64,000 bases of DNA from Psychroserpens ponticola (GTDB lineage: Bacteria; Bacteroidota; Bacteroidia; Flavobacteriales; Flavobacteriaceae): NCBI RefSeq assembly GCF_023556315.2, contig NZ_CP116221.1, positions 3,238,001 through 3,302,000 of the forward strand, written 5' to 3'. The notes below the pieces were generated by a model. The model did no database searches, had not been told where the DNA came from, and saw only the letters and a program-made list of their open reading frames with translations. A program made the position numbers and the translations under genes. Each line of letters starts with the position of its first letter. Position 1 is the stretch's first letter. Shown here piece after piece: positions 25,545 through 34,419 of the stretch.

Positions 25545-26762
25545 TTACAAAATTGAAGTTTCAAAAATAACTTCGCTTGCAATTGTTTTATGAACTGGGC
25601 ATCTTGAAGCAATTTCTTTTAATCTCTCTTTTTGAGTATTGTTTAAATCGCCTATAAATTTTAACTTTTTGCTTATATGATCTAAATACGTTGGTCTATC
25701 AATTTCAATTCCTAAATCATCACTATGCTTTCTTGAATGTGTAACATAAACAAATACTTCTTTTAAATCCCATTGTTTACGCTGTGCATATAATTTTAAA
25801 GTCATTGCTGTACAAGCTATTAATCCTGCGTTGAGATATTCATATGGCGAAGGCCCAAAATCGTCACCTCCAAAAGAACTTGGTTCATCTGCTAACATTG
25901 AATGGTTTTTAGTTTGAATTGATGTTGTAAAGTTATCTTCGATTAGATTTAAGTGGCCAACTAATTGTTCTCCATTGGTCTCTAGCATTATGTTTTCCTT
26001 TGCTTTAAAATAACGTTCCACCCAAGTTGCAATGATATTACCTACATATTTGCTATCCTCTGACTTTGATAATAAATGATCTGCATTATCTAATGACACA
26101 AAACTCTTTGGGTGATGTGCATTATGATACAATTGCTCTGCATTTTTAATTCCAACAATGGTATCAATTGGGGAATGTAAAATGAGTAATGGTTTTCTTA
26201 AGGTTTTTACGATGTCTAGTAAGTCTGTTTTATCGAAGTCTGAAACAAATTCTTCATCAATTTTAAAAGGTCGTCCGCCAATATTCACCTCAACTTTACC
26301 TTTATTTTTTATCTGATCAATCCCATGAGAAAACAAATGTTTTACATGATCGACAGCTGCTGGAGCTCCAACAGTTGCAACAGCTTTGATGTTGTCTAAC
26401 TTAGAAGCTGCAACTAAAACAGCTGCTCCACCTAATGAATGACCAACTAGTAATGATGGTGCTTTATAATTCTCTTTTAAAAAATCATTTACAGCAATGA
26501 GGTCATCAACATTTGCTGAAAAATGACTATCAGCAAACTCCCCTTCGCTTCTTCCTAAACCTGTAAAATCAAAACGCAATACACCAAAACCATGATTTGT
26601 AAGAGATCTACTAATATTCTTTACTGCACTTAATGTACTACTACAGGTGAAGCAATGAGCGAAAATGACAAAATAGTTTGGTTTTTGATTGGCAGGTAAT
26701 TCTAAATACGCCTGAAGCTTGATTCCTTTTTTATTTACTATTTGTAGTTTTTCGTTTTTCAT
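25545..26762 (-). CDS. Alpha/beta hydrolase-OsmC fusion protein
   Basis: 405 aa bifunctional protein. Residues 1-250 are an alpha/beta hydrolase with nucleophile motif GHSLGG (about 107-112) and the late His in DNADHLL (about 228). Residues about 260-405 are an OsmC/Ohr-type domain with [21 protein letters not shown], where the Cys is one redox residue, and SRCPVHKTI supplying the second Cys. This fusion recurs in bacteria and probably links ester hydrolysis and peroxide reduction. Cytoplasmic; lies 62 bases after the aldo/keto reductase gene start-side neighbour and 68 bases before the phosphoesterase gene. Confidence 0.87.
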
Positions 26763-26824: not shown

Positions 26825-27787
26825 TTAATTCCAATTTAATTGTTTTCGTTCATTCCAGTAGTTTGTCGGTTTTATTTTGAAATCCTTAAGTTCTTCAATG
26901 TCTGTATTTGATAATTTAAATGACTCTATTTTTAAGTTTGCTTTTAAATGTTCAATAGTTGAAGCTCCACTTAACACCAAACTATTATTAATGGTCTGCT
27001 CACAAAACTTTAAAGCTATGGCATCAATTCCTACTCGATATTTATAAGATAATTCTTCTAATACCTTATATAAATCAGCATAATGTGAGAAATTGTGATT
27101 TTTAAGAAGTCGACCATTAGCCAAAGCTTCTTTGAGAATTATTGTTTTATTTTGAGAATTTAAATCCGTTTTTATGGTGTTTAAACTTTGATCTAAAATA
27201 TTGTAGGTCACCTGAAAGGCATCAAATAACTGTTTATCATCAATAGTAACATCTAATGCTTTTTTGATGACTTCTGTTTGGTTTAGTCCAGTAGTTGTGA
27301 TACCTATTTGAATATTGAATTCATTTTTTAAATATGCTAATCGATTTAATACGGCTTCATTTTTTAATACACCTGTTTCTAATGTTGCAGAATGAATCTG
27401 ATACACTTTTAAATTTGGAAGGAAGTCTTTTGAGATACTCCATTGTTCATTTAGTTTAGTTACACTATGTTCTTTAATTTCATGAACTAACGCGTCTGGA
27501 TTAAAATTTGCCACATAAGTGTAGCCCCATTTTGTAGCAATTTGAATCGTACTATCATCTTTAGTTTTTAGCCAATCGAAAAGTAACTGTTCAGCTAATC
27601 CATAGCCAGGAGCTGTATCAAAATAGCGCACACCAAGTTGGTAAGCCTTTTCTAAAACCTCTAACCCTTGAGCTTTAAAAGAAGCTAAATCGATATTTTT
27701 ATTAGATTCTTGACGAACATTTATATACTGAGGTCTTCCTAAAGCTGCAGTACCTAAACCATATTTTTGATTCTGAATGGATTCCAT
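26825..27787 (-). CDS. Aldo/keto reductase
   Basis: 320 aa NADPH-dependent oxidoreductase of TIM-barrel fold. FDTAPGYGLAEQLL (about 58-71) holds the catalytic Asp and Tyr, IATKWGY supplies the Lys, and VYQIHSATLETG the His position of the tetrad. The C-terminal SGASTIEHLKANL is the coenzyme loop. Substrate not predictable; similar proteins in this order are called L-fucose-dehydrogenase-like or simply AKR. It follows selO by 17 bases, in the methionine/thiol repair operon. Confidence 0.85.
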   Translation of the reverse strand: MESIQNQKYGLGTAALGRPQYINVRQESNKNIDLASFKAQGLEVLEKAYQLGVRYFDTAPGYGLAEQLLFDWLKTKDDSTIQIATKWGYTYVANFNPDALVHEIKEHSVTKLNEQWSISKDFLPNLKVYQIHSATLETGVLKNEAVLNRLAYLKNEFNIQIGITTTGLNQTEVIKKALDVTIDDKQLFDAFQVTYNILDQSLNTIKTDLNSQNKTIILKEALANGRLLKNHNFSHYADLYKVLEELSYKYRVGIDAIALKFCEQTINNSLVLSGASTIEHLKANLKIESFKLSNTDIEELKDFKIKPTNYWNERKQLNWN

Positions 27788-27804: not shown

Positions 27805-29367
27805 TTAAGAACTACAAGATAACATTGAACAACCTACTTTATGCCTAGCCCAATCTGGACGTTTAGCAAACCACTTTTCATGATTTGGTTGTTCTTCATA
27901 AGGTTGTTTTAGTAGTTGAAATAATTCATCAATTAATTTGTAATCTCCTTTATTTGCATCATCGATGGCTAATTGTGACATATAATTACGAAGTACATAT
28001 TTTGGATTTACAGCATTCATTTTTAATTGCCGTTCAGTATCAGATAATGCTTCTTTTTCTAATCTGAAATCATAGCGTTCAAACCAATCTTTCCAATGTT
28101 GTGCAATCTTATCTGAAACTTCATTTGGCACATAAAAAGCGTCTTTTACAATCTCTAAACCTTTTTTACCATCTCTTTTTTTTAAGTTGCTTAAATTTCT
28201 GAAAAAGATAGTCATATCAGTTTCAGTTAGAAGTAAAGCATCTTCTAACGCTTCAATTAGCGTCTTATCCTTATCGTCACTAGCTTCTAATCCTAATTTT
28301 GATTTCATCATTTGTAAGGACTTTGCTTCAAAATCCGTTTTATACAATTCTAAAATAGTTTCTATAGGTTCTGTTTCTTCAATTAGAGGATACAGCGCAT
28401 TGGCGAGTTGGTATAAATTCCATAGTCCGATATTCGGTTGATTTCCATATCTGTATCTTTTATGTTGATTATCGGTTGTGTTTGGCGTCCATCCAAAATC
28501 GAAACCTTCTAGCCAACCGTAAGGACCATAATCGATTGTTAAGCCTAGAATTGACATATTATCTGTATTCATCACACCATGAACAAAACCAACACGTTGC
28601 CAATGAATAATCATTTGCAAGGTACGTTCGGAAACTTCAGCAAAAAATTGAATGTATGCCTCTTTTGAAGGTGCTCCTAAATGCGAAAAATGATGTTTAA
28701 TAGTAAAATCAACTAATGTTTTTAATGTTTTATGATCTTGTCTAGCTGCAAAAATCTCATAACTCCCAAACCGTAAAAACGAAGGTGAAACACGAGACAC
28801 AATTGCTCCTTTTTCATGAGCAGGATTACCATCGTAAAGCATATCTCTTAAAACCTCATCACCAGTTAATGCTAAAGACAAAGCTCTAGTTGTTGGTACT
28901 CCAAGATGAAACATGGCCTCACTGCACAGGTATTCTCTAATAGAAGAACGCAAAACTGCCAAACCATCTGCAGTTCTTGAATAAGGCGTTTCTCCTGAGC
29001 CTTTAAGCTGAACTGCCCATTGCTTATTGTTGTGTTCAACTTCAAACAAATTAATAGCTCTACCATCTCCTAATTGTCCTGCCCAATGTCCAAACTGATG
29101 ACCACCATAACACATAGCGTAAGGTTTTGTGTTTGGTAAAACTTCATTGCCAGTGACTATTTTAGTAAACAATTCATTTGACAAATCGTTTTCTGAAACA
29201 CCCAAAACTGAGGCCATTTCCTTTGAAACATGAATCACTTCTGGAGCTTTGGTTTGTTTTGGATTTGTATAAGAAAAGCAGGCGTCTTTAACTTGTCGTC
29301 TAGAATTCTCTAAAATAGAATCTGCTGGTAATTCTTTTGTGAATGTATGTTTTAAATTTAGGTTCAT
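27805..29367 (-). CDS. selO: SelO family protein adenylyltransferase (YdiU)
   Basis: 520 aa pseudokinase-fold enzyme that, in characterised relatives, transfers AMP from ATP to hydroxyl side chains of proteins. Motifs: GGHQFGHWAGQLGDGRA (88-104), LKGSGETPYSR near 121 with the conserved Lys, HGVMNTDN (263-270) and the metal Asp in IDYGP (279). It ends in a Cys-rich tail (VGCSMLSCSS) at the place where eukaryotic SelO has selenocysteine; here ordinary Cys. The ATG overlaps the stop of the upstream glutaredoxin-like gene (ATGA), so the two proteins are made together. SelO of E. coli is reported to AMPylate a glutaredoxin, so this pairing is suggestive. Confidence 0.93.
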   Translation of the reverse strand: MNLNLKHTFTKELPADSILENSRRQVKDACFSYTNPKQTKAPEVIHVSKEMASVLGVSENDLSNELFTKIVTGNEVLPNTKPYAMCYGGHQFGHWAGQLGDGRAINLFEVEHNNKQWAVQLKGSGETPYSRTADGLAVLRSSIREYLCSEAMFHLGVPTTRALSLALTGDEVLRDMLYDGNPAHEKGAIVSRVSPSFLRFGSYEIFAARQDHKTLKTLVDFTIKHHFSHLGAPSKEAYIQFFAEVSERTLQMIIHWQRVGFVHGVMNTDNMSILGLTIDYGPYGWLEGFDFGWTPNTTDNQHKRYRYGNQPNIGLWNLYQLANALYPLIEETEPIETILELYKTDFEAKSLQMMKSKLGLEASDDKDKTLIEALEDALLLTETDMTIFFRNLSNLKKRDGKKGLEIVKDAFYVPNEVSDKIAQHWKDWFERYDFRLEKEALSDTERQLKMNAVNPKYVLRNYMSQLAIDDANKGDYKLIDELFQLLKQPYEEQPNHEKWFAKRPDWARHKVGCSMLSCSS

Positions 29368-29612
29368 AGGTATTTATCGAGCCATTTTAAGAGTTCTTTT
29401 TCTGATGGATTTCTTAATCGTTTTGTAGTTATAGTTATGGTAGGAAAATTGAGCTTCTTATTGCTGTATAAGTTACATAATTCTTCAGCAAAATCTAAGT
29501 TTTTTTCTACATCAAGAAACCTATAATCAAGATTTCGATGCTCAAAAAACGTTTTATAATACTGAGTTTTATGGCACCTTTCGGTGCCATAAAGTTTAAT
29601 TATGTTTTTCAT
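29364..29612 (-). CDS. Glutaredoxin-like protein with a single active-site cysteine
   Basis: 82 aa thioredoxin-fold protein. It starts IIKLYGTERCHKTQYY, where the CxxC of dithiol glutaredoxins is CHKT, leaving only the N-terminal Cys. LNFPTITI (about 56-63) provides the cis-proline loop, and a C-terminal helix follows. Such a protein could still resolve glutathionylated thiols in a monothiol way. Short compared with standard glutaredoxins (about 85-110). It overlaps selO by 4 bases and follows msrA by 13 bases. The family is not certain; NrdH-like or Spx-like are alternatives. Confidence 0.7.
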   Translation of the reverse strand: MKNIIKLYGTERCHKTQYYKTFFEHRNLDYRFLDVEKNLDFAEELCNLYSNKKLNFPTITITTKRLRNPSEKELLKWLDKYL

Positions 29613-30803: not shown

Positions 30804-32018
30804 ATGAGTCCTCTTATTATTAAAACAGAGCAATTTGTCACTAAGTATTTAAATGATAATTTAGATTCAACATATGTGTATCATAATATTGCTCATACCC
30901 AAAGAGTTGTCGCTAAAGCACATGAACTTGCAGAAGAGTTAAAATTAAGTGATACTGAAAAGGAGCAATTGTTATTGGCTGCATGGTTTCATGATACTGG
31001 ATTCACAAAAACCATTGATGGTCATGAAAAAGAAAGTGTGAAAATTGCTTCAGATTTTTTAAAAGATGAAAACGTTTCAGAAGAAACTATTAAAAGTGTT
31101 TCAGAAATTATAATGGCAACCCAAATGAACTATGAGCCAAAAAACAATTTGGAAGGACTTATTAAAGATGCCGATTGCGCTCATGTGTCTAGTAAAAATT
31201 ATGAAGACTATGCCTCACTTTTACGAAAAGAGTGGGAATTAACATTAGGCAAAAAAGTGACTAAATCTGAATGGTTACAAGAAAACATTAAGTTTATTAC
31301 CAATCATACATTTCATTCTGCGCTAGCATCAGCAAAATGGGAAAAACGAAAAGGAAAAAACTTAGCAAATCTTTTAAAAGGTCAAAATAAAATTAAAGAA
31401 AGTACAAACAAGTTAAAGCAAAAAAAAGCAGAATTACAGTTTAAAAAAGAAAAATTAGAATTACCAGAACGCGGTATTGAAACCATGTTTAGAGTTGCGC
31501 TTCGGAATCATATTACTTTGAGTGATATTGCAGATACAAAAGCTAATATTTTATTATCTGTGAATGCAATTATCATCTCTTTAGTACTTTCAAATCTGGT
31601 ATCAAAATTAGACAATCCTTCAAATCACTATCTAATTTGGCCGACTGTTATTTTTGCATTATTTACTGTTGCATCCATAGTTTTATCTGTACTCGCAACA
31701 CGACCAAATGTAACTCAAGGAAAATTTACAAAAGACGATGTTGCTAATAAAAAAGTAAACCTTTTATTCTTTGGGAATTTTCATAAAATGAAGCTAGATG
31801 AATTTGAATGGGCAATGCATGAAATGATGCAGGATAGAGACTACCTTTATAGCTCGCTTACTAAAGATTTGTACTTTTTAGGTTTGGTTTTAAATAGAAA
31901 ATATAATTTACTTCGTTTAACCTATACCGTATTTATGATAGGAATTGTTATCAGTGTTATTTGTTTTGGAGTTGCTTTTCATTTAGCTGAAACTGGATCA
32001 ACAAGTCCTTTAATTTAG
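30804..32018 (+). CDS. HD-domain protein with Pycsar-effector-type membrane domain
   Basis: 404 aa. The N-terminal half is an HD metal-dependent phosphohydrolase domain with His31 (IAHTQRV), His63-Asp64 (AAWFHDTGF), a further His74 and Asp122 (IKDADCAHV). A Lys/Glu-rich coiled linker (about 190-222) leads to a membrane domain with helices at about 250-270, 277-297 and 374-396. The segment RNHITLSDIADTKANILLSVNA is typical of DUF5706, the domain used as membrane effector in Pycsar antiphage systems. No pyrimidine cyclase is next door, so defence function is unproven. HD fusions of this type are widespread in flavobacteria. Confidence 0.8.
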   Translation: MSPLIIKTEQFVTKYLNDNLDSTYVYHNIAHTQRVVAKAHELAEELKLSDTEKEQLLLAAWFHDTGFTKTIDGHEKESVKIASDFLKDENVSEETIKSVSEIIMATQMNYEPKNNLEGLIKDADCAHVSSKNYEDYASLLRKEWELTLGKKVTKSEWLQENIKFITNHTFHSALASAKWEKRKGKNLANLLKGQNKIKESTNKLKQKKAELQFKKEKLELPERGIETMFRVALRNHITLSDIADTKANILLSVNAIIISLVLSNLVSKLDNPSNHYLIWPTVIFALFTVASIVLSVLATRPNVTQGKFTKDDVANKKVNLLFFGNFHKMKLDEFEWAMHEMMQDRDYLYSSLTKDLYFLGLVLNRKYNLLRLTYTVFMIGIVISVICFGVAFHLAETGSTSPLI

Positions 32019-32024
32019 AAATTC

Positions 32025-34400
32025 TTAAACTTTAATCTCTTTCATTAAATCATCATAAGTATAAAAGTCTTTATCATTATTTTCTTTATGATATAGAACA
32101 CTTACTCTAATTGCTTTTAAGCCTGTCACTGCTTGTAAATCTTGTAGTTCTACAATTTCCATATCATCATCTAAATACTTCTTAGATTGTAAGAATTTGA
32201 TATATCGTAAGTATTCAATTTCATCTTGTTTTTGAGAATATACAATACTAATTTTTCCTTTTTGAGTAACTCTTTCTGTAGTTCCTTTAATGTAAGCTTT
32301 ATCTACTCGCTTTTTAACAATTTCATATCGAGCATTATAAGTTCCATCAACATCAAATTGTTTTTCATCCATTCTAAAACTAATAGATAATGGTTGATTA
32401 AATACCAAAATCATTGAAGCTACATCTAGTGAAACCGGAAAGCTCTTTTGCATTAAATAAAATGCATTTTCCATTTCAACCATGACTTGTAATTGCCACA
32501 ATCTTAAGTTGTACAAGTAAATAGGATTAAAGCTATCTTCTTTAGTAATAGATTCACCTATATACATGTTATGCTCGACTCCATCAGTTTTAAAACGTTC
32601 AAAATAATGTGGATACATCTCTTGAGCATCAACTTGTTTTTTATCTAAAAGCGCAGCCATTTCTTTATTGATTAAAGCAATAGTATCATCGTAGTTTTTT
32701 CTATGAAGATATAAACCTTCAACTTTATTATCTATACTATTAAAATAATTTTGAACTTTATCTTTTAAAGCACCTATAACTCTTAAATGGTTCAAAACTG
32801 GATCAATATCATGCTTAATAAAAGCTGATATTTGTTGCTCACTATCCACTTGAAAATTGGATTCTAAACCTTCTAAATATGTACTAATTTGATACAAGAA
32901 TTGCTCATAAATTGGCAAGTTTTCAATTTGTAATGCGTTAGTTACAATAGATTTTATAGCGGTTAACTGAATTGATAAATCTTTTCTTGTCGCTGAGTTT
33001 CTTGCTTCTGAAGAGCCTTTAATATCTATTTGACCAAATAATGGATAAATATTTTCGAAGGCTATTTTATTAAAATTAGGTTCGTTGCCTTTAAGTTGTT
33101 CCTTGATAAAATTTTTAGCTTCTTTTTTAAAACGCCAATGCACACTTGGATGTATCGATGTACATTCGGTTTGAATGATGGCTTCAATTAAGTTTTCCTC
33201 TTCATTTTTAGAGCGTTCAACAGCTGTGACAATAAACGACATCACATCATTCAACTTATTAGCATTAATGCTATTAAGAACTTTAGGTTCTTCTGAAACA
33301 ATTTCAAGAATTCCCAATAATTCTTTTTCATTAGCTATAGGCGCAAAAATTGCACTTTTTATATGTTGTTCTTTCAGTGTTTTATATTGAGGAGCTTTTC
33401 CTTTTGATAACTCATAATATTTGTCAACATCTGAGACTGAATAAAACTTCTTATCTTTAAGCAAGGTTCGATAAGACATACTACATAAAGTACCCGAACA
33501 CGAATTAGATTCTAAATCATTAAGCAAAAAGCTATTCATTTCAGCTCCATATACACGTTCGAATCGATCTTCTTCTTCATTATAAATTGAGAATCCAACT
33601 TTAATATTTTTTAAGCCTAAAAGCGATTGAAATATTTTATGAAAATCATTCATAAAACCTTCATTTTGTCTCTTTTCTTCACCAATTAAAGCTGTTTTAA
33701 TATTTGAAATCGATTGATCATCTGTAACATTAAAAACATTAGAAATTACAAACCCTTTAAATGTGTAGCTATCTTTAGGGAATTTTTCTTTCCATAACTC
33801 AATATTGTCAAAATTATCTAACAGTTCATCGACATCGTTTTGAGTGATTTTTGGAGCATTTTTAGTAGGAATAATTTCAGTAAAATCTGCATTATACAAT
33901 ATTTTATAATATTGCATGATCCCTTTAGCATTTGGAATTTCGTAATAAAAAGGACGTTTAAAATTTATATCAAATCCATAACAAAATGCCAAAACAATAG
34001 TACAGGCAATAATGTACTTATCGTCTTCAGGCATGTTTTTTATCTTTAATTGAAAATCGTCACCTGCCTCTTTTATGATGTTCTTAAATCGTTCAGAAGA
34101 ATTAAAAATAAGATTATGAATAGGTACAGATGCGGTCTTAATTTCATTCTTAGTTAAGACTGGGCTAAAAGAATCTTGAAGAATAATACCAATTTCCTTT
34201 TCTCGCTCTTTCAAAATAGAAACATCACTAAATCCATCACGCAAAATTGGAAAAGCATCCGCAGTTTTTAAAACACGCCTTGCTTTAGCAACAATAAATT
34301 CATCATCACTTTCGGCTAAAGCCTCGTAATGCTTCAAAAGTTTATTAAAACTAACTAAAAGTTTAAAAGGCGATTCTAAATTATCGTTGAGATCTTTCAT
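32025..34400 (-). CDS. GAF-domain-containing protein of unknown function
   Basis: About 791 aa soluble protein. A mid region (about 235-400) has a GAF-like sensor fold (SLLGLKNIKVGFSIYNEEEDRF and SAIFAPIANEKELLGILEIVS). The N-terminal 200 residues are helical and end near a hydrophobic patch (YIIACTIVLAFCYGFDINF). The C-terminal 380 residues are mostly helical with no catalytic motif I recognise. The start is put at ATG 34400, just after a predicted -7 box, not at a GTG at 34418. It converges on the HD-Pycsar-effector gene with 6 bases between stops. Perhaps a signalling protein, but no output domain is evident. Confidence 0.65.
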   Translation of the reverse strand: MKDLNDNLESPFKLLVSFNKLLKHYEALAESDDEFIVAKARRVLKTADAFPILRDGFSDVSILKEREKEIGIILQDSFSPVLTKNEIKTASVPIHNLIFNSSERFKNIIKEAGDDFQLKIKNMPEDDKYIIACTIVLAFCYGFDINFKRPFYYEIPNAKGIMQYYKILYNADFTEIIPTKNAPKITQNDVDELLDNFDNIELWKEKFPKDSYTFKGFVISNVFNVTDDQSISNIKTALIGEEKRQNEGFMNDFHKIFQSLLGLKNIKVGFSIYNEEEDRFERVYGAEMNSFLLNDLESNSCSGTLCSMSYRTLLKDKKFYSVSDVDKYYELSKGKAPQYKTLKEQHIKSAIFAPIANEKELLGILEIVSEEPKVLNSINANKLNDVMSFIVTAVERSKNEEENLIEAIIQTECTSIHPSVHWRFKKEAKNFIKEQLKGNEPNFNKIAFENIYPLFGQIDIKGSSEARNSATRKDLSIQLTAIKSIVTNALQIENLPIYEQFLYQISTYLEGLESNFQVDSEQQISAFIKHDIDPVLNHLRVIGALKDKVQNYFNSIDNKVEGLYLHRKNYDDTIALINKEMAALLDKKQVDAQEMYPHYFERFKTDGVEHNMYIGESITKEDSFNPIYLYNLRLWQLQVMVEMENAFYLMQKSFPVSLDVASMILVFNQPLSISFRMDEKQFDVDGTYNARYEIVKKRVDKAYIKGTTERVTQKGKISIVYSQKQDEIEYLRYIKFLQSKKYLDDDMEIVELQDLQAVTGLKAIRVSVLYHKENNDKDFYTYDDLMKEIKV

Positions 34401-34419
34401 AATGACATTTTGAAACACA

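Follow-up and report, generated by a model that had tools for sequence, protein, structure and literature searches.

SelO (YdiU) proteins have been connected with glutaredoxins on the one hand and with methionine sulfoxide reductases on the other. According to the excerpted text of a review, SelO AMPylates an Escherichia coli glutaredoxin in vitro on the active-site Tyr13, the screen having used human SelO (PMC8097203); a sequence-only reading made earlier of the locus described below started from such AMPylation. In the consulted part of a second report, the deglutathionylation of the glutaredoxin GrxA is proposed to be under the reversible control of SelO and RNase Z (PMC12663964). The linkage of SelO to msrB is likewise already published: msrB was significantly found near SELO genes, with only an uncorrected trend for msrA (PMC3281104). 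The available portion of that survey describes neither a redoxin partner nor the operon order presented here, and no description of this operon was found among the open-licence PMC papers listed for SelO/YdiU, glutaredoxin, msr operons, and flavobacteria. Redoxins are also known to serve Msr enzymes. In the available parts of the respective sources, the MsrA of Clostridium oremlandii is reduced in a Grx-dependent manner (PMC4479559), that of Corynebacterium diphtheriae is recycled by mycothiol with mycoredoxin (PMC10950700), and atypical Msr proteins with a single cysteine depend for their regeneration on glutaredoxins, unusual thioredoxins, or other thiols (PMC6162775).

The DNA analyzed here is a 64,000-nucleotide stretch of the Psychroserpens ponticola genome, referred to as the window. 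What is new in it is a subfamily and an arrangement of known parts. We propose that a monothiol CHKT redoxin, so far encountered in Flavobacteriaceae, serves a methionine-sulfoxide-repair operon, most likely by recycling Msr enzymes, and that SelO is an optional guest of this operon; we give this proposal as a whole an even chance of being right.

The gene cluster and its CHKT redoxin

The cluster occupies the minus strand, and its features are listed in the table below.

Table. Features of the minus-strand gene cluster in the window.
Feature	Positions	Strand	Remarks
msrB, methionine-R-sulfoxide reductase, 153 aa	30155-30616	-	SelR Pfam 165.2 bits; first gene of probable operon
msrA, methionine-S-sulfoxide reductase, 179 aa	29626-30165	-	PMSR Pfam 205.9 bits
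One-cysteine glutaredoxin-like CHKT redoxin, 82 aa	29364-29612	-	Active site C13-H14-K15-T16
ATGA overlap of redoxin stop (TGA) and selO start (ATG)	29364-29367	-	Four bases common to both ORFs
selO, protein adenylyltransferase family, 520 aa	27805-29367	-	Pfam 411.8 bits; DYGP Asp; tail GCSMLSCSS
Aldo/keto reductase, optional operon member	26825-27787	-	Pfam 78.2 bits; 17 nt after selO; in 34/80 named loci
Alpha/beta hydrolase-OsmC domain fusion, frequent operon member	25545-26762	-	Hydrolase_4 64.8 bits, OsmC 53.2 bits

From msrB to the hydrolase-OsmC gene, the successive intergenic gaps are -11, 13, -4, 17, and 62 nt. The gene order and the ATGA overlap given in the sequence-only reading are thus both confirmed, with msrB-msrA directly upstream of the redoxin and selO on the same strand. 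No convincing promoter was seen upstream of the window msrB when the sequence was inspected by eye. On this side of the cluster, a divergent gene (30804-32018, plus strand) encodes an HD domain and a Pycsar-effector transmembrane domain (PycTM, 133.5 bits), and it adjoins a 797-aa ORF (32025-34418, minus strand) with no Pfam match at E ≤ 0.001. Relatives of these two genes occur in 52 and 47, respectively, of 80 named loci (the best 80 of 159 hits), a conserved synteny that looks more like housekeeping than defence.

The product of selO matches PF02696 (411.8 against 22.8 bits) and the YdiU family NF000658 (560.7 against 431) and misses the narrower SelO equivalogs NF040880 (401.1 against 900) and NF045949 (428.8 against 850). 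By these profiles it is clearly a member of the SelO/YdiU family and a predicted adenylyltransferase. The Asp of its DYGP motif aligns to residue 256 of PDB 6k20, a position obtained by counting in the alignment; D256A is described in the consulted part of PMC12663964 as an inactive E. coli SelO mutant. The C-terminal tail (27805-27834) ends in C-x4-C-S-S-stop, a spacing wider than that of the Cxx[CU] tail given for SELO in the excerpted survey (PMC3281104).

The redoxin itself is less readily assigned. It scores 20.1 bits against the cut-off of 22.9 for the Pfam glutaredoxin family PF00462, which some of its orthologs pass, and it stays under the cut-offs of GRX_bact (13.5 against 90 bits), YruB (TIGR02196; 30.1 against a curated 88.55), and mycoredoxin (TIGR02200; 16.2 against a curated 89.5). 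The nearest profile is thus YruB-type glutaredoxin-like, followed more weakly by mycoredoxin, UXX-star, Spx/ArsC, and NrdH, with the window protein below all curated cut-offs. An AlphaFold2 model built from 44 rows (pLDDT 94.9, pTM 0.85) predicts a glutaredoxin/thioredoxin fold. Foldseek matched this model to small thioredoxins and glutaredoxins (3zij at E 1.6e-4), and VIA-align placed 7c10 in the top row (Z 12.9, rmsd 1.4 over 75 residues); rows less than Z 1 apart count as ties, so the comparison does not point to one structural relative. A PDB search with the window redoxin alone gave a best E of 0.057; with the profile of alignment A2, made of the matched stretches of 43 of the 80 named loci plus the window redoxin, it gave 3zit at E 4e-4, 5cax at 0.0012, and weaker matches. 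Within its own genome, the redoxin is the sole match to itself at E ≤ 0.001; no protein there passes the Pfam glutaredoxin cut-off, and the CHKT redoxin heads the five matches obtained at E ≤ 1.

The active site was compared across 96 distinct orthologs, which remained from 108 loci once sequences with stops, short pieces, and duplicates were dropped. Cys13, Lys15, and Pro57 are invariant, and 95 of the sequences have His14; position 16 holds Thr or Ser in 95, the remaining one having Cys. The family therefore carries CHKT or CHKS, and the CPYC or CGFS active site, which we take to be that of glutathione-dependent glutaredoxins, is not present. The second active-site Cys is indeed absent, as the sequence-only reading had it, but its absence is a family trait and not a local loss, so we rejected the idea of a recent change. 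Judged by motif and modelled fold, the CHKT protein and its orthologs form a subfamily of monothiol redoxins.

The thiol background of the host bears on how such a protein would work. BshC and the bacilliredoxin-type YtxJ exceed their cut-offs in all 28 genomes that carry an ortholog of the redoxin. The GshA family PF04262 was detected in 0 of these 28 genomes and PF04107 in 5, neither being detected in the window genome. A GshB-like ATP-grasp match is present there, but was set aside as a sign of glutathione, as no GshA family match occurs in the genome and none was seen nearby by eye. YpdA, the known bacillithiol disulfide reductase family, was also set aside as a recycling partner, being over cut-off in only 5 of the 28 genomes, the window genome not among them. 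According to an excerpted report, N-methyl-bacillithiol is found in Polaribacter sp. MED152 (PMC6282198), and Polaribacter is one of the genera carrying the redoxin gene among the named loci. From its gene content, the window host appears to use bacillithiol and not glutathione. A glutathione-based reading of the redoxin is accordingly unlikely, as far as the missing GshA indicates, and the deglutathionylation account is not transferable to this genome.

Distribution of the redoxin and its linkage to msr genes and selO

Redoxin orthologs were found in 28 of the 299 genomes of the window's family (identity of at least 53%), including two with broken frames and one truncated. We take this set to be Flavobacteriaceae, since 8 of the 28 ortholog loci coincide with named records whose genera belong to that family. 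The named set comprises Polaribacter, Winogradskyella, Tenacibaculum, Psychroserpens, and others and, being the best 80 of 159 hits, is biased to close relatives; the same 8 loci are common to both sets. For a search across the phylum, alignment A1 was made from 26 of the 28 orthologs, the broken frames of G006 and G188 being left out. Matches were obtained in 55 of 395 genomes, but most fall on the GNAT part of three fused A1 rows, so that this count is hardly informative on the redoxin. Small ORFs strongly matching the redoxin part turned up in only two of the 395 genomes, G000 and G032, both of the same family. A weak match to this part, interrupted by stops, occurred in G125 (same family), and others lay inside ORFs of 482 to 852 aa in G444 (same family), G338, G541, and G625.

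Several loci show fused or decayed forms of the gene. Three of the 28 ortholog genomes (L049, L053, and L056) encode the redoxin as a fusion with a GNAT (Acetyltransf_CG) domain, and in L190, L197, and L212 a GNAT match lies between the redoxin and selO, apparently fused to the former. GNAT matches also lie upstream of selO in 9 of the 79 SelO loci lacking an adjacent ortholog (L101, L117, and others). At L111 (4413-4625), a degraded relic of the redoxin (34% identity, internal stops) persists beside a GNAT match and selO; along with the frame breaks in G006 and G188, this relic points to a dispensable redoxin gene.

Neighbors were counted by tblastn over the 28 ortholog loci and the 80 named loci, in counts that ignore kinship. 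An msrA or msrB gene lies upstream of the redoxin, on the same strand and within 3 kb, in 26 of the 28 and 77 of the 80 loci; for msrB alone, the figures are 26 and 75. The two exceptions among the 28 are L045, whose contig extends only about 1.35 kb upstream, and L059, where the redoxin frame is broken and msrA lies just downstream; those among the named loci are L152, L207, and L216. The nearest recognized gene within 300 nt upstream of the redoxin, in the 80 named loci, is msrA in 48, a redoxin in 22, msrB in 4, and none in 6. A CxxC redoxin precedes the CHKT redoxin within 1.2 kb in 19 of the 28 ortholog loci and likewise lies upstream in 22 of the 80 named ones. Downstream, within 6 kb, an msrA-type gene is found in 19 and a hydrolase-OsmC gene in 18 of the 28. 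Across loci, the order can be written msrB-msrA-[redoxin]-grx-[selO]-[second msrA]-hydrolase/OsmC, with optional members in brackets.

Some further members of these neighborhoods deserve mention. The second MsrA-like protein (L036 8246-8791 and relatives), whose gene often directly follows that of the redoxin, has GCHWC instead of GCFWC in 17 of 22 sequences of this type. A fusion of two Grx domains with a thioredoxin reductase lies inside the msr operon in L053, L054 (8260-9666, domains scanned), L185, and L143 and is a possible electron supply for the operon. An 83-aa family with no Pfam or NCBIfam match at E ≤ 0.001 (L053 8971-9222) occurs near selO, redoxin, and msrA-type genes. In L060 (6799-8240, scanned), L061, L062, and L063, a glutaredoxin-like gene (CMKS, CTKS, or CPKS) shares an overlap with the gene of a KefB/KefC-like antiporter, a second redoxin pair that may be of interest for gating.

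The association with selO is looser. SelO was found in 93 of the 299 genomes, and 76 of these 93 lack a redoxin ortholog; conversely, 17 of the 28 ortholog genomes carry SelO, with selO directly downstream of the redoxin in 13. The selO and redoxin starts are no more than 600 nt apart in 13 of the 28 ortholog loci and 39 of the 80 named loci, and selO lies within 6 kb in 14 and 47, respectively. The pair singled out in the sequence-only reading therefore recurs, but it is not a fixed unit, given the 11 ortholog genomes without SelO and the many SelO genomes without the redoxin. Co-presence over the 299 genomes is significant when kinship is ignored (17 of 93 genomes with SelO versus 11 of 206 others; Fisher p = 9e-4). 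A combined MsrA and MsrB tree (FastTree), built from the 127 of 187 loci that had both proteins after duplicates were dropped, requires at least 13 changes in selO presence among the 88 redoxin-carrying loci; 26 of its 124 inner branches are well and 47 poorly supported. The exact 4-nt overlap of redoxin and selO occurs in 25 of 52 close pairs (3 loci being counted twice). We rejected this overlap as the mark of a special pair, as the 28 loci contain 277 ORF pairs on the same strand, of which 25 have a 4-nt overlap, 6 being grx-selO.

Some genomes carry the redoxin without selO beside it. All 11 ortholog genomes without SelO keep the redoxin behind msr genes (one of them, G006, with a broken frame). 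In three genomes with the redoxin and SelO apart, the redoxin stays with msrB-msrA (L049, L051, and L054), and SelO lies elsewhere (L085, L140, and L096), in L085 with an msrB-msrA pair of its own; in one of the three, G253, some 30 kb of the same contig separate the two genes. Of the 79 SelO loci lacking an adjacent ortholog, 45 have msrA or msrB no more than 3 kb upstream, and 52 have an msr gene on either side. Both genes thus look like guests of the msr operon, the redoxin being the more faithful one. Since it follows the msr genes rather than SelO across genomes, the redoxin is more likely a helper of Msr repair than a target of SelO.

Candidate roles of the redoxin

In the proposed recycling, MsrA or MsrB would reduce methionine sulfoxide and be left with an oxidized catalytic Cys, either a sulfenic acid or a mixed disulfide with bacillithiol. 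Cys13 of the redoxin would attack this oxidized Cys, and the redoxin would in turn be regenerated by bacillithiol, by the CxxC redoxin of the operon where present, or by the thioredoxin system, with SelO as an optional guest of the same stress operon. The proposal starts from what was observed, namely, the gene linkage, the fold of the model, the one-Cys motif, the bacillithiol-system genes, and the lack of a detected GshA; from these we infer the chemistry, the source of electrons, and a preference for Msr enzymes over other proteins as clients. Precedents exist in the glutaredoxin-reduced MsrA of Clostridium and the mycothiol-dependent MsrA of C. diphtheriae. If the redoxin does recycle Msr enzymes, bacillithiol-type cells would have in it a one-Cys equivalent of mycoredoxin with a Grx fold.

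The cysteines of MsrB and MsrA bear on this proposal in both directions. The GxGWPSF position of MsrB, presumably the classical resolving-Cys site, is Ser or Thr and not Cys in 22 of 22 sequences that have the motif, 3 of 25 falling outside the pattern. The invariant MsrB Cys55 might act as a substitute resolving Cys, and in MsrA four Cys, including a resolver candidate, are invariant in 23 of 23 close relatives. With these residues kept, thioredoxin alone could suffice, which counts against a strict need for the redoxin. Other points also weigh against Msr recycling: a gene neighborhood indicates a common pathway and not a reaction; few genomes have the gene (28 of 299), and there are msr operons that lack it, as at 45 of the 79 SelO loci; the bacilliredoxin-type YtxJ is already present, and YpdA passes its cut-off in few of the ortholog genomes; and the SelO association is significant as well.

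These points leave room for a general bacillithiol- or thioredoxin-type redoxin without a special partner, in an operon whose genes would be regulated together under oxidative stress, with no need for their products to interact. The modular, shuffling composition of the operon, with hydrolase-OsmC, aldo/keto reductase, second msrA, and selO genes, and the many changes on the MsrA-MsrB tree fit such a protein. However, the steady place beside msr genes exceeds what a free-standing redoxin needs, and YtxJ, found in 28 of 28 ortholog genomes, may already cover a general role, so that we regard this explanation as possible but on the unlikely side.

Natural SelO substrates outside enterobacteria are, to our knowledge, little known, and the sequence-only reading had put the redoxin forward as one. 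In a more specific version, the CHKT redoxin would be AMPylated locally by SelO on T16, Y18, or Y19 beside the active Cys, blocking its thiol chemistry under stress in the way proposed for SelO and E. coli GrxA. The operon link of the two genes is real: the direct pair recurs, often with the ATGA overlap, and co-presence is significant; SelO retains the DYGP Asp (E. coli D256 by counting), and the window genome contains no better glutaredoxin-type match than the redoxin. Potential acceptors are also conserved, with T/S16 in 95 and Y19 in 94 of the 96 distinct orthologs, but the presence of SelO makes little difference to the conservation of T16 and Y19. Residue 18 is Tyr in 55 of 59 orthologs with SelO versus 27 of 37 others, in a count that ignores kinship and for named loci judges selO from the fetched locus only; this difference is a weak signal that kinship may explain. 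The known acceptor also speaks against the idea. GrxA Tyr13 is the third residue of CPYC, and its place, assigned through the CPYC position, is taken by Lys15 in 96 of 96 distinct orthologs. In addition, 76 of 93 SelO genomes have no ortholog, 11 of 28 ortholog genomes have no SelO, and GshA was not detected in the window genome. The comparison hence does not favor the redoxin as a natural substrate; the substrate inference is weak, and we consider it improbable. Should SelO nevertheless modify the redoxin, the acceptor must differ from that of GrxA, which would widen the view of substrate choice. Genomes with redoxin and SelO, with redoxin alone, and with SelO alone offer a comparative handle on SelO in any case.

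The relation could also run in reverse, the redoxin opening a disulfide in the SelO C-terminal tail (C513, C518) and thereby switching AMPylation on or off. In the excerpted review, a disulfide between Cys272 and Cys476 controls Pseudomonas syringae SelO (PMC8097203), and both tail Cys are kept in 15 of 15 SelO sequences of the ortholog set and 76 of 79 from SelO loci without an adjacent intact ortholog. Yet this last figure shows the tail to be independent of the redoxin. GCSMLSCSS is identical in 73 of these 79 loci and its CSS end in all 79. Moreover, an activation-loop Cys is absent from the 20 commonest loop motifs (58 of 79 loci), so that the P. syringae disulfide is not copyable there, and the redoxin is found without SelO; we think this relation very improbable. 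The least probable arrangement is a two-layer switch in which a bacillithiol-dependent redoxin recycles Msr and, in lineages that carry it, SelO stops the recycling under stress by AMPylating T16, Y18, or Y19. SelO would then act without detected glutathione synthesis and on a redoxin lacking the E. coli acceptor.

Comparison with known systems

By profile, the redoxin is closest to the YruB family (TIGR02196), the best NCBIfam match, hit by all 44 aligned redoxin members at E ≤ 0.01, and like that family it is a small single domain; it differs in scoring far under the family cut-off, in its single Cys (CHKT/S), and in its msr operon. Mycoredoxin (TIGR02200) is matched weakly by 35 of the 44 members, and the redoxin model superimposes on Mrx1 (PDB 2lqo) with Z 10.7 and rmsd 2.8 over 81 residues at 26% identity. 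According to the excerpted source, mycoredoxin also provides the precedent of MsrA recycling via a low-molecular-weight thiol (PMC10950700), whereas the window protein is well below the mycoredoxin cut-off, has no second motif Cys, and belongs to a bacillithiol-type host.

In structure, the top rows are those of cGrx1, which we take to be the Clostridium oremlandii glutaredoxin (PDB 7c10 and 7c12; Z 12.9 and 12.3, rmsd 1.4 and 1.3 over 75 and 73 residues). Identity is only 15%, however, cGrx1 is dithiol, and the next rows (7pwe, 3zij, and 3zit) are tied within Z 1. E. coli GrxA shares the glutaredoxin fold class and, in the consulted parts of two reports, is AMPylated by SelO (PMC8097203, PMC12663964), but the redoxin has Lys in place of Tyr13, a single Cys, and a host without detected GshA. 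Finally, the msrB gene, and by its trend msrA, near SELO in the available portion of the published survey (PMC3281104) is the same neighborhood in which the window places selO.
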